The position numbers and the translations under genes are program-made. DNA of 57,832 nt, taken from positions 1 to 57,832 of the forward strand of contig JAAVXK010000078.1 of the NCBI GenBank assembly GCA_022790615.1, read 5' to 3'. This document shows, in pieces, positions 8,542-49,663 of this stretch (position 1 is its first letter; every line of letters begins with the position of its first letter). Under the pieces are notes generated by a model that saw only the letters and a program-made list of their open reading frames with translations, did no database searches and was not told the origin of the DNA. Source of the DNA: Lachnospiraceae bacterium. Its GTDB lineage: Bacteria; Bacillota; Clostridia; Lachnospirales; Lachnospiraceae.

Positions 8542-8664
8542 CCGTGTAATGCGTTATAGATATTATATATATGCATATATCTTGCATTTGTAAAAATAGT
8601 ATGTTATTGTAAAAAAAATAATTTCATAATGTGTTCTTTGAACAATCGGAATGTGGTCAGCGTG

Positions 8665-8850
8665 TACTGCAAGGCTTGTCATAAGGAAAAGATTGCAATA
8701 TACGAGGATAATAGGGAATCCGGTGGGAATCCGGAGCAGTCACCTCTACTGTAACACTGACGGAAGGCTTATATACCACTGGCGCGCAAAGCTGCGCCGG
8801 GAAGGTGCCGGAAGGATGAAGTGGAGTCAGGAGACCTGCCATGTTCTGAA
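8665..8850 (+). ncRNA. Cobalamin (adenosylcobalamin-type) riboswitch
   Basis: GGGAATCCGGTGGGAATCCGGAGCAGTCACCTCTACTGTAAC and GGAGTCAGGAGACCTGCC conserved core elements; outer boundaries approximate. Confidence 0.9.
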
Positions 8851-8857
8851 TGAAGTT

Positions 8858-8889: not shown

Positions 8890-9060
8890 GCTAAAGGAAT
8901 TATACTAGTGTTGCATAGTCATGGACTGTAGGGTTGAAACGCAGGGTATGACGGCAATGGCTTTTTTGCGTGCGCGGGAGGCAGAACAGTACGGCTGCCG
9001 CATTGCGGCGGCGCATGGATAGTGTATGGAGGCTGCGGGTAAAGAAAAGGCTTGGTGCAG

Positions 9061-11157
9061 ATGATGAAATCAGTTTTGTTTGGCAAAAATAAAATATTTG
9101 TCCTTATTCTGGCATTAGCGATAATGGCAGAATTTTTTTTGCCGCAAAAAACTGCCGTGTATGCCGGCAGAGTAACAGATACATCCGGGGATGGGATGGC
9201 GGTGAGCACATCCGGGATAAAGTCGGTAATTGAGAAGACATTTGCACGAATCTGTGTAACGGATGAGATTGTGGAAAATGCGGGTTCGTCTGACTGTGAC
9301 TGGCTTGCATTTTCAGTTGGACGGTATACCGAAGCATACGGCGGTAAGGACGCTTTTGGTAACCTGGAAGCATACAGGGAAGCCCTGTGCAGGTATGTGG
9401 GCCGCAAATATTCGGAAAGCGGCCGACTTCACCGCAATAAGGCTACGGAATGGCATAGGATATCGCTTACGCTGCTTGCCTGCGGAGGTAATCCGTACAA
9501 TCTTATAAGGGAAGATGACGACAGCGGCAGTGTGATTAATCTGATAGCTGACGGTACATATAACTGCGTGACCGGCGAGCCGTGGCGGCAGGGCGTGAAC
9601 GGAGCAATCTATGCCCTTATTACGCTTGATTCAATGGAATATGATATACCGGACGAGGCGGATTATACAAGGGATGATATTTTAAGTTATATTCTCTCAC
9701 AGGAACTGCAGACGGGAGGCTTTTCGCTCGCGGGCAATGCGGCCGCGGGATATGATACAGACGTAACCGCAATGGCGGTGCAGGCGCTTGCAGGGTATTA
9801 TGACTGCAGGGATGATGTAAGGAAGGTTGTTGACAGGTCGATAGCATGTTTTCAGGATGGGCTTGGAGCTGACGCGACTTATGGTAACGCTTCCAGTACC
9901 GCGCAGGTATTGCTTGCGCTTACAAGCGCCGGCATTGATGTGACAAAAGACGAACGGTTTATTACGGTGGATGGCCATAGCATAATAGACGGGATAATGA
10001 ATTTTTATGACGAGGATGCATCCATGTTCTGCCTGACAAAAAATTCGGGACCGGGTTTCATGGCAACGACGCAGTGCCTGTATGCGCTGACAGGCTGGTG
10101 CAGACAAGCTGATGGGTTCAGTCCTCTGTTTGCCTTTGGAAAGACAGCGGGTCAGCCGGAGAAAACGCCGGGCCCTGACGCGACACAGAAACCTGCCGCA
10201 ACGCCAACACCTGAACCGCCCGTCACAGAAGAAAACCCTGATACGAAACTAAATCCCATGCAGACGCAGATTCCGGCCGCAGATGATACGGATAGTCAGG
10301 TAAAAAATAATAATGTTTATTATGACGCGTTCCATAAGGATGAGGGAAGAACGACAGAGAAAACCAAGAGAAATGGTAAAAAGAAAAAAACAAAATATAC
10401 AAAAATAAAGCATACAAAAACAAAGCATACAAAAACAAAGCATATAAAAACAAAACATATAAAAACGTATAATACAATAACAGATAGAAAAAAAGCAGTT
10501 CAGTGGAAAGCAGCCAGTTCAAACACAGAAAAGAGTAAAACAGAAAAAAATAGAAACGATGTCATTATAGTCCGGGATGAAGCTTATATAACGGAGAATG
10601 AACTAAGCGGGATTATAGGCACCGACAGTAACATTTTAATTGACAGTTTGTTTGACGACACGCACAGATGCCTTGTCACAATAAACGGCGCGGATGTCGG
10701 CACATGCCGCCACATGAACCTCAAGGCCTCGGCAGGAAGCGGGAATGCTTCATACGACGAAGAAATTATGGCAATGGCATCCGGTGCATTTATATTCAAT
10801 GTGGAAGATGATAACGGAATTGAGTGCGATGCGCTGTATTCGATAGAGACGTCCCTTCCGTCCGGCGAATATCTGCTTATGCGGTATGCGGGCGGCAATG
10901 CTGACTGTGTGGACAAGGTGGGCGTTTCGGACGGATATTTAAGATTTGTAATTGACAGGCCGGGCATTTATTTTGTATGTAAGGAAGTGAAAGTAAAAAC
11001 CGGACCCGCACTTTCAGTTTTACCGGCCGCCGCAGACGCCAAAGACGGCGGGCAGATTGAACAATATATAGCCGCGGCGTTACTGGCTGCAGCGGCCGTA
11101 ACCGTATGCACGGTAATAATTATGAGGAGAAAGAAAAATGCGGATAATGCGGATTAA
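9061..11157 (+). CDS. Secreted, C-terminally membrane-anchored protein with terpenoid cyclase/prenyltransferase-type (intrinsic-factor alpha-domain-like) repeats
   Basis: Signal peptide; YILSQELQTGGFSLAGNAAAGYDTDVTAMAVQALAGYYD and STAQVLLALTSAGID repeats; C-term TM YIAAALLAAAAVTVCTVIIMRRKK; first gene after B12 riboswitch. Confidence 0.75.
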   Translation: MMKSVLFGKNKIFVLILALAIMAEFFLPQKTAVYAGRVTDTSGDGMAVSTSGIKSVIEKTFARICVTDEIVENAGSSDCDWLAFSVGRYTEAYGGKDAFGNLEAYREALCRYVGRKYSESGRLHRNKATEWHRISLTLLACGGNPYNLIREDDDSGSVINLIADGTYNCVTGEPWRQGVNGAIYALITLDSMEYDIPDEADYTRDDILSYILSQELQTGGFSLAGNAAAGYDTDVTAMAVQALAGYYDCRDDVRKVVDRSIACFQDGLGADATYGNASSTAQVLLALTSAGIDVTKDERFITVDGHSIIDGIMNFYDEDASMFCLTKNSGPGFMATTQCLYALTGWCRQADGFSPLFAFGKTAGQPEKTPGPDATQKPAATPTPEPPVTEENPDTKLNPMQTQIPAADDTDSQVKNNNVYYDAFHKDEGRTTEKTKRNGKKKKTKYTKIKHTKTKHTKTKHIKTKHIKTYNTITDRKKAVQWKAASSNTEKSKTEKNRNDVIIVRDEAYITENELSGIIGTDSNILIDSLFDDTHRCLVTINGADVGTCRHMNLKASAGSGNASYDEEIMAMASGAFIFNVEDDNGIECDALYSIETSLPSGEYLLMRYAGGNADCVDKVGVSDGYLRFVIDRPGIYFVCKEVKVKTGPALSVLPAAADAKDGGQIEQYIAAALLAAAAVTVCTVIIMRRKKNADNAD
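10390..10475 (+). repeat. 15-bp tandem repeats encoding KHTKTKHTKTKHIKTKHIKT linker
   Basis: Iterated catacaaaaacaaag-type units read directly in the sequence. Confidence 0.85.
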
Positions 11158-15400: not shown

Positions 15401-16804
15401 ATGAACACAGTATTTAAAAAAGCAACTGCATGTCTTGTTTCGGCGGCAATGCTTATAGCGGCGGCGCCGGCTGTTCTGTCTGACATGTATGTTTGCGCAA
15501 AGACAAGAATTGTTTCTCAGAATGATGATGCGACCGCCACGCAGGTAAAGGTCTTGGTTAAGGCGGAAGATTACACGGCCGTGGCTTCAGAGATAGACGG
15601 CGCTTCAAAAACGGGACTTATAGCGGAAACCGAGGTGCCGGCTGCATCTGCGGCGGACGCAATTGAAAAAGCGCTCACAGCGGCCGGTGTTGATTATGAT
15701 ATGAGTATGGGTTACGTATCGGAGGTGAACGGACTTTCCCAGGCGGACGGATACGCCATGTCCGGCTGGATGCTTGCATATAATAACGACGATTGCGACA
15801 ATTGGGGGCTTGACTATATTCATGTTAAAGACGGCGACACGCTCAGTCTTATATATACGCTTGACGGAGGAGCGGATATAGCTTCGGCGTCGAGCGGCCT
15901 GCCTACTCTGAAAACTCTTGAAATAGCGGGTTTGGAATATGAATTCCAGACAATTACTGCGTATGATGCGGACTGGAATCCATCATACACCTACAAGGTT
16001 AACGGGAAAGAGATGGAAGGCGCCGGAACGAAGGACAACCCGTTCGTTATCGAGTGCGATATTGCACCGGAATATAAGGACGGCAAGGTTACATATTCCT
16101 ATACGACATATGCAAATCAAAACTATGTAAGCGTTGACGCGGCGCCTTATATCAGCGCTGGCAAAGACAATGAAATAACGGTAACTTCGAGGGGTGGAAG
16201 AAAGGCTTATTATAATATAAACGTATCTTTCGCGGAACAGCCGACAGGAACACCAAAGCCGACAGACACGCCGAAGCCGACAAACACACCGAAACCGACG
16301 GAGACGCCGAAAGCGACAGATACACCGGAACCGACGGAGACGCCGAAAGCAACAGACACACCGGAACCGACGGAGACGCCGAAAGCGACAGATACACCGG
16401 AACCAACGAAAACACCACAGTCAACAGTTACGCCGTTACCGGCCGCAACAGAACCCGCATATACGAACCAGCCTGTTCACACAGCGAAGCCTTTGCCGTC
16501 CCAGACGGCGGTTCAGCCAAAAGCGCCGGGAAAAGCTAAAGTGAAGTCGTTAAAATTGTCAGGAAATAAACTTAAAGTGTTCGTAAAAAAGGTTAAGGGT
16601 GCGAAAGGTTATAAAATTACTGCAGCGTCAGACAAAGCCTTTAAAAAGAATAGGAAGATAAAATATACTTCAAAGGCGGGAATTACATTTTCCAAATGTA
16701 CTAAAAACAGATACTATGTGAAAGTACGGGCATATGTTATCGGAGCGGATGGAAGAAAAATATACGGGCGAGAAAGCAGGACGGTCAGGATTGTGTTAAA
16801 GTAA
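15401..16804 (+). CDS. Secreted protein with DUF4430-like domain, beta-sandwich region, Pro/Thr linker and FN3-like C-terminus
   Basis: Signal peptide; AMSGWMLAYNNDDCDNWGLDYIHVKDGDTLSLIYTL; TPKPTETPKATDTPEPT repeats. Confidence 0.75.
   Translation: MNTVFKKATACLVSAAMLIAAAPAVLSDMYVCAKTRIVSQNDDATATQVKVLVKAEDYTAVASEIDGASKTGLIAETEVPAASAADAIEKALTAAGVDYDMSMGYVSEVNGLSQADGYAMSGWMLAYNNDDCDNWGLDYIHVKDGDTLSLIYTLDGGADIASASSGLPTLKTLEIAGLEYEFQTITAYDADWNPSYTYKVNGKEMEGAGTKDNPFVIECDIAPEYKDGKVTYSYTTYANQNYVSVDAAPYISAGKDNEITVTSRGGRKAYYNINVSFAEQPTGTPKPTDTPKPTNTPKPTETPKATDTPEPTETPKATDTPEPTETPKATDTPEPTKTPQSTVTPLPAATEPAYTNQPVHTAKPLPSQTAVQPKAPGKAKVKSLKLSGNKLKVFVKKVKGAKGYKITAASDKAFKKNRKIKYTSKAGITFSKCTKNRYYVKVRAYVIGADGRKIYGRESRTVRIVLK
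16243..16430 (+). repeat. Pro/Thr-rich coding tandem repeats
   Basis: Repeated ccgacggagacgccgaaagcgacagatacaccggaa units. Confidence 0.85.
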
Positions 16805-40033: not shown

Positions 40034-40888
40034 ATGCGTTTTACGAAGATGCAGGCGTACGGAAATGATTACGTCTATATAGATGCAATACATCAAAAGC
40101 TTCCGTCTCTGCCCGAGCTTGCCCGTTTTGTCTCGGACAGGCATTTTGCGGTGGGGTCTGACGGAATGGTTCTCATATGCCCGTCCGACAAAGCGGATTT
40201 CAGGATGCGGATGTTCAACCCTGACGGTACGGAGGGCGAAATGTGCGGCAATGCGCTAAGAAGCGTTGCAAAGTATGTATACGACCACAGACTTACGGAC
40301 AAGACGGAATTAAAGATAGAGACGCTCGGCGGTATTAAAAGCCTTGAACTGTATGTTGAGGACGGACTGGCGGTCAATATTAAAGCGAATATAGGCAATC
40401 CGGTTCTTGATACGTCAAAAATACCGGTCAGCACGAATCTTGACGAGTTTATAGAACAGCCCGTACAGGTTAGGGACATCGTGCTGAATATCACCGCTGT
40501 TTCGTGGGGCAATCCGCACTGTGTGGCATTTATAGAAAATGTCTCCGACTTTGATGTATGCGGTTACGGACGCGATATTGAGTACCGGACAGATATATTT
40601 CCGAATAAAACCAATGTCACGTTTGCGCAAATCGTCGACAGAGGCTATATAAAAATGCGCGAATGGGAGCGCGGTACGGGTGAAACTATCGGGTGCGGAA
40701 CCGGCTGTGCGACAGCGGTTGTTGCGGGAGTTATAACCGGAAGATGCGACAGGCACGTAAAGGTTGAACAGATAGGCGGAATACTTGATATATACTGGTG
40801 TGAGGATGACGGCAATCTTTATATGACCGGTGTTTCCAATACGGTGTTCGAGGCTGATATTGACGTATCCGGCGTTCCGGGCATTTAG
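40034..40888 (+). CDS. dapF: Diaminopimelate epimerase
   Basis: FTKMQAYGNDYVYID; FNPDGTEGEMCGNALR; GTGETIGCGTGCA. Confidence 0.96.
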   Translation: MRFTKMQAYGNDYVYIDAIHQKLPSLPELARFVSDRHFAVGSDGMVLICPSDKADFRMRMFNPDGTEGEMCGNALRSVAKYVYDHRLTDKTELKIETLGGIKSLELYVEDGLAVNIKANIGNPVLDTSKIPVSTNLDEFIEQPVQVRDIVLNITAVSWGNPHCVAFIENVSDFDVCGYGRDIEYRTDIFPNKTNVTFAQIVDRGYIKMREWERGTGETIGCGTGCATAVVAGVITGRCDRHVKVEQIGGILDIYWCEDDGNLYMTGVSNTVFEADIDVSGVPGI

Positions 40889-40912
40889 CGCGTGTTTGCC
40901 GGTGGACTGGCG

Positions 40913-40996
40913 AAACGCTCCGCTTGGGATGCGCACTCGCGCGATATGTAGTTAGCTGCATCCGCAGCACGCGCCCGGCGCGGAGAATGTCGCAGA
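40913..40996 (+). repeat. Dispersed structured repeat, copy A (upstream of murE)
   Basis: cgctccgcttgggatgcgcactcgcgcgatatgtagttagctgcatccgcagcacgcgcccggcgcggagaatgtcgca; near-identical copy at about 49550. Confidence 0.85.
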
Positions 40997-41043
40997 CGGT
41001 ATTCTTTGCTAGGTTAACAATTGAGTGGATAAGGAGAACAGAC

Positions 41044-42510
41044 ATGCAGTTAGAGACATTGTTAAAGGGTCTTGACTATAAATGTATTGCAGGTGATATA
41101 AGGACAGAAATTAAGGGACTTTCCTACGACTCGAGAAAAGTCGGTGAGGGAGAGGTTTTTTTCTGTATAGACGGAGTTGTCCACGACGGACATTCATATG
41201 CGGGCGAGGTTGTCAGAAAGGGAGCTGCCGCGCTTGTTGTCGAGCATGAGGTCGAGGTAGGCAAAGACTGCGGCGCTGCCGTTATCATGGTTGAATCGGT
41301 CCGATACGCTATGGCTGTTATGTCGGCTGAATATTTTGGCAATCCTGCTAAAGAGGCTGTGATTATCGGAATTACGGGAACGAAAGGAAAAACGTCAATC
41401 TCTTACATGATTCGGGACATGCTTGAGCGTACCGGACATAAGTGCGGTATTATAGGTACGATAGGCGCATTTTGGGGCGAAACAAAGGTAAACACCGGAC
41501 TTACAACTCCTGAATCGTATGTAATACACTCGCTTTTCAGGAGAATGGTTGACGACGGATGCGGATACATTGTGATGGAAGTGTCCTCGCAGGCGCTTAA
41601 GCTTAGCAGAACTGCGGGTATACAGTTTGATTATGCTGTGTTCACTAACTTTTCGCCCGACCATATATGCGAAGGCGAGCATGCAAGCCTTGAGGAGTAT
41701 AGAGAGTGTAAAGAGATTTTGTTTACCCAGTGTAATACGGGAATATTTAATCTGGATGACGATGTGGCCGATATTTTTATAAGACACGCCGCCTGCGATA
41801 CTATAATTACATTTGGGACAGGCGCGGCGGCTGATGTGCGCGCGGATAACATACGGCAGTGGAATCACGGAGGAAAGCTTGGAATATCGTATGAAATGTC
41901 GGGTATGTATGAGGGAGAAGTCATGCTTGAGATTCCGGGTATATTTAACGCGTACAATTCGATGGCGGCGATTATTGTGTGCAGACTTTTGGGCGTCGGT
42001 ATGAGAGAACTTACCGAAGTTCTGCGGCATGTGAGGGTTCACGGCAGAGTTGAATTAATCAATGTCTCTGATGAATATTCGGTAATTATAGACTATGCGC
42101 ATAACGAGGTCAGTACTCGCAGCGTTCTTGACACGCTTAGTCAGTACGAACACAACAGGATAATCTGTGTGTACGGCGGCGGGGGAAACCGCTCAAAGCT
42201 GAGAAGGTACGATATGGGCGAAGTTGCGGGCGAACTTGCAGATTTGTCGATACTTACATGCGACAACCCGAGGGACGAGGAAATATGCGACATCAATAAT
42301 GATATTAAGACGGGGCTTGCAAAGCATAACGGCAAATATGTCGAGATAGAGGATAGGACGGACGCGATTGCGTACGCTCTTCGAAACGCAGTCAAGGGCG
42401 ATATTATCGTGCTGCTCGGCAAGGGCCATGAGGACTATCAGGAGATAAAGGGCGTGAAGTACCATTATGACGAGCGGGAGGCCGTGCGAGAGGCGGCTGC
42501 GAGGCTGTAG
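41044..42510 (+). CDS. murE: UDP-N-acetylmuramoyl-tripeptide synthetase (MurE-type Mur ligase)
   Basis: ITGTKGKTSISYMI; TPESYVIHSLFRRMVDDGCGYIVMEVSSQAL; CDNPRDE. Confidence 0.9.
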   Translation: MQLETLLKGLDYKCIAGDIRTEIKGLSYDSRKVGEGEVFFCIDGVVHDGHSYAGEVVRKGAAALVVEHEVEVGKDCGAAVIMVESVRYAMAVMSAEYFGNPAKEAVIIGITGTKGKTSISYMIRDMLERTGHKCGIIGTIGAFWGETKVNTGLTTPESYVIHSLFRRMVDDGCGYIVMEVSSQALKLSRTAGIQFDYAVFTNFSPDHICEGEHASLEEYRECKEILFTQCNTGIFNLDDDVADIFIRHAACDTIITFGTGAAADVRADNIRQWNHGGKLGISYEMSGMYEGEVMLEIPGIFNAYNSMAAIIVCRLLGVGMRELTEVLRHVRVHGRVELINVSDEYSVIIDYAHNEVSTRSVLDTLSQYEHNRIICVYGGGGNRSKLRRYDMGEVAGELADLSILTCDNPRDEEICDINNDIKTGLAKHNGKYVEIEDRTDAIAYALRNAVKGDIIVLLGKGHEDYQEIKGVKYHYDEREAVREAAARL

Positions 42511-49087: not shown

Positions 49088-49260
49088 AGCCGTGACAGCG
49101 TCAGCGTAAAACTTGTATGCGCTTGGCGGTTAAGCGTCCGGAAAAAATCAAAGGGACGCTGAATTATATTATTTTTTAAGATATTGCCCTGTCGTGTAAG
49201 AAAAAATACTTGATTTTTTTTCAGTTTGGCACTAAAATAATTAGCGTAATAGAGAATATA

Positions 49261-49369
49261 ATCTTCGGGGGCAGGGTGCAAATCCCTACCGGCGGTACAG
49301 CCCGCGAGCCGTATGGCATGAACCGGTGTGATTCCGGTGCCGACAGTATAGTCTGGATGAGAGAAGAAT
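49261..49369 (+). ncRNA. FMN riboswitch (RFN element)
   Basis: ATCTTCGGGGGCAGGGTGCAAATCCCTACCGGCGGTACAGCCCGCGAGCC...AACCGGTGTGATTCCGGTGCCGACAGTATAGTCTGGATGAGAGAAG. Confidence 0.97.
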
Positions 49370-49442
49370 ATTGATGATGAATTCTGTTTTTTACTTGTTT
49401 TTATTATAGAAATATTGTCTAAAGTAGATTTTTTTGTATCAT

Positions 49443-49477
49443 AAAAAGCCCCTGTAAGATTGCAGGGGCTTTTTTTG
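49443..49477 (+). terminator. Intrinsic terminator of the FMN riboswitch
   Basis: AAAAAGCCCCTGTAAGATTGCAGGGGCTTTTTTT. Confidence 0.9.
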
Positions 49478-49497: not shown

Positions 49498-49550
49498 TCT
49501 TTTTCATATAATAGGAAACTGCTTTGCAATTTTCTATTATATGAAAAGCG
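49498..49550 (+). repeat. Inverted repeat next to structured repeat copy B
   Basis: CTTTTTCATATAATAGGAAA...TTTTCTATTATATGAAAAG. Confidence 0.7.
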
Positions 49551-49630
49551 CTCCGCTAAGGATGCGCACTCGCGCGATATGTAGTTAGTTGCATTCGCAA
49601 TACGCGCTCGGCGCGGAGAATGTCGCAAAT
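49548..49630 (+). repeat. Dispersed structured repeat, copy B (between FMN riboswitch and ribD)
   Basis: cgctccgctaaggatgcgcactcgcgcgatatgtagttagttgcattcgcaatacgcgctcggcgcggagaatgtcgca. Confidence 0.85.
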
Positions 49631-49663
49631 GTATTACAATATGATTGTACGGGAGGGGTATGG

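Follow-up and report, generated by a model that had tools for sequence, protein, structure and literature searches.

Window copies A and B

The window (the whole 57,832-nucleotide stretch analysed) contains two direct copies of a repeat, A and B, which have 82 nt in common by window BLAST (copy A 40913-40994 vs copy B 49546-49627; 90% identity, E-value: 1e-23). Comparison of 140 instances gives a full unit of about 130-150 nt (roughly 135) that consists of H1, H2, a core enclosing H3, and H4. Copy A lies between dapF (stop at 40888) and murE (41044..42510, + strand). A mechanical 5' extension of the murE ORF begins at TTG 40924 and contains copy A. The original prediction took this extension to be leader, and the sequence bears this out: the true start of murE is ATG 41044, with AAGGAG just upstream, and this start is conserved in a sister species without the element.

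Copy A (40913..41005, + strand) comprises H2, the core with H3, and H4, and is matched by the covariance model R1 (98 positions) at 40911-41010 with 80.9 bits. Its 3' end had at first been placed too early, as the H4 stem extends to 41005. The following features are all on the + strand. The H1 position is occupied by a hairpin (40890..40918; GCGTGTTTGCC...GGCGAAACGC) that, from its fold and from comparison with canonical H1, is unrelated to H1 in sequence. The H2 mini-hairpin (CGCTCCGC, 40916..40923) is predicted from H2 covariation among relatives. The conserved 5' core GGATGCGCACTCGCGCG (40927..40943) carries the 5' strands of P2 (40931-40934) and P3 (40939-40943), and the 3' core CGCGCCCGGCGC (40970..40981) carries the 3' strands of P3 (40970-40974) and P2 (40978-40981). 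Between them is the H3 stem-loop GCTGC-ATCC-GCAGC (40955..40968), in which five of five pairs show two-sided changes among 60 relatives. The H4 hairpin (40984..41005) is weakened relative to the family, with 8 bp of which two are G-U.

Copy B (49546..49627, + strand; R1 match 49544-49643, 66.3 bits) lies between an FMN riboswitch and ribD, about 22 nt beyond the intrinsic terminator of the riboswitch (49444..49476, + strand, identified from the sequence). Its H1 is an AT-rich hairpin (CTTTTTCATATAATAGGAAA...TTTTCTATTATATGAAAAG; 49499..49548, + strand) and the 3' arm of its H4 has been lost. Both copies look like decayed members of the family, copy A having an unrelated GC hairpin in place of H1 and a weak H4, and copy B lacking the H4 3' arm. 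Two riboswitches score above the Rfam gathering score in the window, FMN (49257-49372) and cobalamin (8639-8857). The window also contains tandem 18-nt repeats (16224-16439) within an ORF at 15401-16804 (+), which probably encode a threonine/proline-rich linker, and tandem 15-nt A-rich repeats (10386-10470) within an ORF at 9052-11157, which are probably lysine-rich in translation.

Architecture and covariation

The loop stem reads GCTGC ATCC GCAGC in copy A and GTTGC ATTC GCAAT in copy B. The change of C-G to T-A (two-sided) and of G-C to G-U is exactly the compensatory change that had been described from the two copies. The folding energy of copy A alone is unremarkable (MFE z = -0.34), so the case for a structure rests on covariation, for which two copies are insufficient and the family is required.

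H1 is an AT-rich palindrome with a conserved apex (TAGGAAA...TTTCCTA) and a base that is variable yet complementary. H2 is a mini-hairpin with the variants CGC TCC GCG, CCC TCC GGG, GCC TCC GGC and GACAC TTC GTGTC. The GC-rich core (GGATGCGCACTCGCGCG...CGCGCTCGGCGC; signature GGATGCGCAC...GGCGC) contains P2, P3 and the enclosed H3. H4 (GAGAATGTCGC AA GCGACATTC) is a terminator-like hairpin and is followed by a T-rich tail that ends in TTTGTTC or similar. In 60 sequences, two-sided changes occur in 16 of the 26 pairs (shuffled mean: 9), and none of 500 shuffles was as high on any of five measures. The collection was picked by core sequence and the invariance of the core is therefore biased; later variants (TGCGGCG/CGCCGCA, GGCGC/GCGCC and T-A for C-G in P2) indicate that P2 and P3 covary too. 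Taken with the 90% identity of the two window copies, this covariation supports the original prediction of a dispersed structured repeat.

Three other structures were rejected. An outer CTCCGC/GCGGAG stem, also part of the original prediction, is complementary in both copies, but two-sided changes are absent from it and 51 of the 60 relatives have lost one of its six pairs; CTCCGC belongs to the local mini-hairpin H2 and GAG to H4. A local GCGC-ACTC-GCGC hairpin in the core likewise has no two-sided change. H1 is not an independent repeat, as its apex was found without the core in 0 of 39 cases.

Copy number and distribution

Sequence searches of the window's genome (a draft of 2.63 Mb in 141 contigs, 85% complete) detected no fewer than 24 copies, full or partial, with E-values below 1e-10, plus shorter remnants. 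The core pattern matched at least 119 stretches; among the matches listed, nearly all are labelled Lachnospiraceae, Eubacteriales or genera of Lachnospiraceae, and they include Butyrivibrio proteoclasticus, [Eubacterium] cellulosolvens and MAGs of Roseburia, Mediterraneibacter and Eisenbergiella. In a family survey with R1, which scored at most 13 matches per genome, 131 of the 299 Lachnospiraceae genera sampled contained relatives, although the weakest single matches may be due to chance. In a class-wide sample, 6 of 391 genomes match R1, all of them Lachnospiraceae. The element is restricted to Lachnospiraceae in the samples examined.

Viral contigs gave 14 exact 17-mer matches, none of which is a convincing element by R1, and no element was found in the plasmids searched. 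Phage records gave 21 matches. The two that were examined, MT835478.1 and MT835487.1 (L336 and L337; 'Bacteriophage sp.', UNVERIFIED), carry genes for RecG, FtsW, PBP, BipA and asparagine synthase and appear to be chromosomal sequence of bacteria deposited under a phage label. Rfam gave no match at gathering score at the element, either in the window or at L031, and a known structured RNA family was rejected on this basis. No relevant description of the sequence or of a Lachnospiraceae repeat was found in the literature searched, which is not proof of novelty.

Placement at terminators

Of the 123 copies with a recognisable H1, 74 have an intrinsic-terminator hairpin immediately 5' of it. The same hairpin test 3' of H4 is positive in 13 of 123 (Fisher p: 1e-16), and at random positions in 11.6%. 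Where the terminator is present, its T-tract forms the 5' arm of H1. About 40% of copies, copy A included, have no obvious terminator hairpin. Tandem copies (L111, L157) begin in the T-tract of the preceding copy's own H4. The orientation bias, 61 vs 3 at first sight, is smaller against a neighbourhood control: the upstream gene is co-directional with the element in 89 of 108 cases vs 297 of 420 gene pairs in the control (p = 0.015). Gaps between convergent genes are also over-represented (27/108 vs 46/420 in the control; p = 0.0005). This bias arises because the element sits at terminators. The element occupies the end of the T-tract in intrinsic terminators, with the same orientation as the gene that is terminated.

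Mobility and empty sites

Small dispersed palindromic repeats are common, yet they are seldom caught moving; here, near-identical copies and empty sites are available. Genome G136 has five copies after five different terminators, with 95% identity over the core and H4. At three of these five sites, the orthologous terminator is present in the sister species G708 but is empty. The junction is clean at L296: G708 reads ...CCAAACTTTTTT^TGTGGGAATAATT and L296 reads ...CCAAACTTTTTT[element]TGGAAATTATT, with no target duplication longer than about 2 nt. Elsewhere in its genome, G708 has a copy of 96-99% identity. At L297, AAAAACGCTCCCC in the 3' flank resembles an A-tract plus H2 and is perhaps the remnant of a second copy.

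In G009, the genome most closely related to that of the window (MurE 92%), neither copy A nor copy B is represented at the corresponding positions. This comparison is blurred by intergenic divergence and gives no clean junctions, so that strong evidence comes from the G708 sites only. A different copy, L012 downstream of ilvC, is present in both genomes. Compared with its counterpart (G009 C2:114336), it has the same rare H2 change but a different H3 and linker, which suggests conversion between copies.

These observations show that the element is mobile and disperses to new places. The original prediction had held that mobile-element-like divergence only would speak against selection for a folded element; the mobility is real, while the 'only' fails in view of the strong covariation.

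Search for a mobilising enzyme

Clustering of neighbouring proteins around 140 copies revealed no recurrent protein or adjacent transposase. In the original prediction, a REP-associated transposase had been put forward for checking, and the outcome was negative. Y1 transposases occur at the background rate in element-rich genomes (those with at least five R1 matches), being present in 31 of 56 vs 164 of 299 overall. The group II intron maturase domain likewise shows no association (18 of 56 vs 93 of 299). Both sets of counts were tallied by eye. Neither Y1_Tnp nor the group II maturase was detected in this draft genome (85% complete).

Pairing at the DNA or RNA level

Comparison of the sequences shows that the stems are kept by Watson-Crick compensation. 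Selection for RNA on the + strand predicts an excess of G-U over A-C mispairs such as that in neighbouring gene terminators (G-U:A-C = 100:20). H1 (29:70) and H4 (5:7) have no such G-U preference, although the counts come from related copies and are hence not independent events. This pattern leans toward pairing of H1 and H4 at the DNA level. In H3, where there are seven G-U and no A-C mispairs, RNA-level selection may operate.

Among copies with 86-95% identical cores in one genome, the base of H1 varies by locus and yet matches its own partner arm. In G012, the arms agree at 98 of 99 varying positions vs 69.2 for arms exchanged at random between loci (p = 0.0005). The same holds for G255 (63 vs 47.2 shuffled; p = 0.0005), G143 (p = 0.004) and G000, the window's genome (p = 0.02). 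In recent G136 copies (L295, L299), the H1 arms are not yet matched.

This agreement may arise because the target is recognised by pairing, because template switching corrects the arms, or for both reasons. We give an even chance to the view that the H1 arms owe their identity to template switching, which would correct the quasi-palindrome once it has inserted, and not to recognition or selection. The near-perfect arms of G012 and the uncorrected L295 and L299 are as this process would produce. It would not account for the precise placement at terminators or for the cross-genus compensatory changes in H3 and H4; it applies to H1 only, and is compatible with the mobile-element explanation given below.

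Proposed model and alternatives

The best explanation, to which we assign a probability of roughly 0.8, is that a non-autonomous mobile DNA element of about 130-150 bp, restricted to Lachnospiraceae in the samples examined, gave rise to copy A, which has since decayed. Insertion could proceed as follows. A mobilising enzyme would recognise the hairpins as DNA, in single-stranded or cruciform form. The internal A-tract would pair with the T-tract of the host terminator, which would extend H1 and help to choose the site. H4 would give the host gene a second terminator, making the insertion nearly harmless. It is possible, if rather doubtful, that the element represents a new class of mobile element, in which an internal A-rich guide pairs with the terminator T-tract, an unrecognised enzyme moves the unit, and each host terminator receives the element's own terminator in addition.

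A specific version of this explanation is that the element is a non-autonomous relative of IS200/IS605 (Y1 HUH), with single-stranded end hairpins, no target duplication and an internal guide that pairs with the target. The hairpins near both ends, the lack of a visible terminal inverted repeat, the L296 junction and the complementarity of the internal A-tract to the target T-tract are all consistent with such a relative. The background rate of Y1 transposases, the failure to detect Y1_Tnp in this genome and the finding that no copy adjoins a transposase make this version unlikely.

Alternatively, the repeat could be a functional RNA at transcript 3' ends (a second terminator, a stabiliser or a regulatory RNA) that is selected by the host, its dispersal being secondary. 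Strong covariation and the H3 mispairs would be expected of such an RNA, as would the co-directional upstream genes and the resemblance of H4 and its T-tract, intact in 70-85% of copies, to an intrinsic terminator. However, H1 and H4 do not show the tolerance of G-U, the element is patchy among genera (131/299), the orthologous terminators of the sister species are empty, H4 is damaged in both window copies, and the orientation bias is explained by terminator placement. We regard this proposal as quite improbable.

Least probable is a SINE-like retroelement, in which a reverse transcriptase working in trans, such as that of a group IIC intron, copies an RNA with the H4 U-tract at its end into terminator T-tracts: bacterial-C introns do use the same site, immediately after intrinsic terminators (PMC8919778), a T-rich tail follows H4 at the end of the element, and 5'-truncated copies exist, but 3'-truncated copies are about as common, the maturase domain is not associated with the element and the pairing looks DNA-level.

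The mobile DNA element is significant in several respects. The end of intrinsic terminators would be a safe-harbour target, and the family concerned is dominant in gut and rumen and includes cultured genera such as Butyrivibrio. The element affects gene-start calls, as at murE, and the annotation of terminators and riboswitch leaders. It also provides a system in which insertion directed to terminators, with no known enzyme, can be tested.

Comparison with known systems

On the features tested, the element is not a TIR-type MITE, as its ends (GTTTAATAGG.../...CTTTGTTC) do not form inverted repeats and there is no duplication over about 2 nt. REP/BIME sequences with RAYT (Y1) and non-autonomous derivatives of IS200/IS605 are extragenic palindromic DNA with end hairpins and no known target duplication. 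Unlike REP, which is a single hairpin of 20-40 nt, the present element is a unit of 130-150 nt with four hairpins; a REP/RAYT system was rejected on this multi-hairpin structure and the lack of Y1 association. The end hairpins (H1 and H4) and the absence of target-site duplication at the clean empty site (L296 vs G708) are reminiscent of IS200/IS605, but no autonomous tnpA copy with the same ends was found, given that no recurrent protein was seen near 140 copies and H1 never occurs apart from the core. Rickettsia palindromic elements are lineage-restricted palindromic repeats of about 100-150 nt that have no known mobiliser and enter coding regions. The present element is similar in size and lineage restriction, but is mostly intergenic and located at terminators.

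Two systems are nearer. The pneumococcal BOX, RUP and SPRITE repeats are small interspersed intergenic Firmicute repeats with hairpins and are apparently parasitic; SPRITE is Rho-independent terminator-like and is found near gene 3' ends (PMC3049150). The present element, from a different host family, is set apart by description, with its four-hairpin architecture and GGATGCGCAC core, and it inserts at the T-tract of pre-existing terminators, with which H1 pairs. The insertion site of bacterial-C (group IIC) group II introns, immediately after intrinsic terminators (PMC8919778), is also that of this element (74/123 copies; three empty sites). Identity with a group II intron was rejected, as there is no Rfam match at the element in the window or at L031 and no maturase association, and the element is only about 135 nt long, without a ribozyme or reverse transcriptase. 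The nearest known systems are BOX, RUP and SPRITE by kind and the group IIC introns by site.
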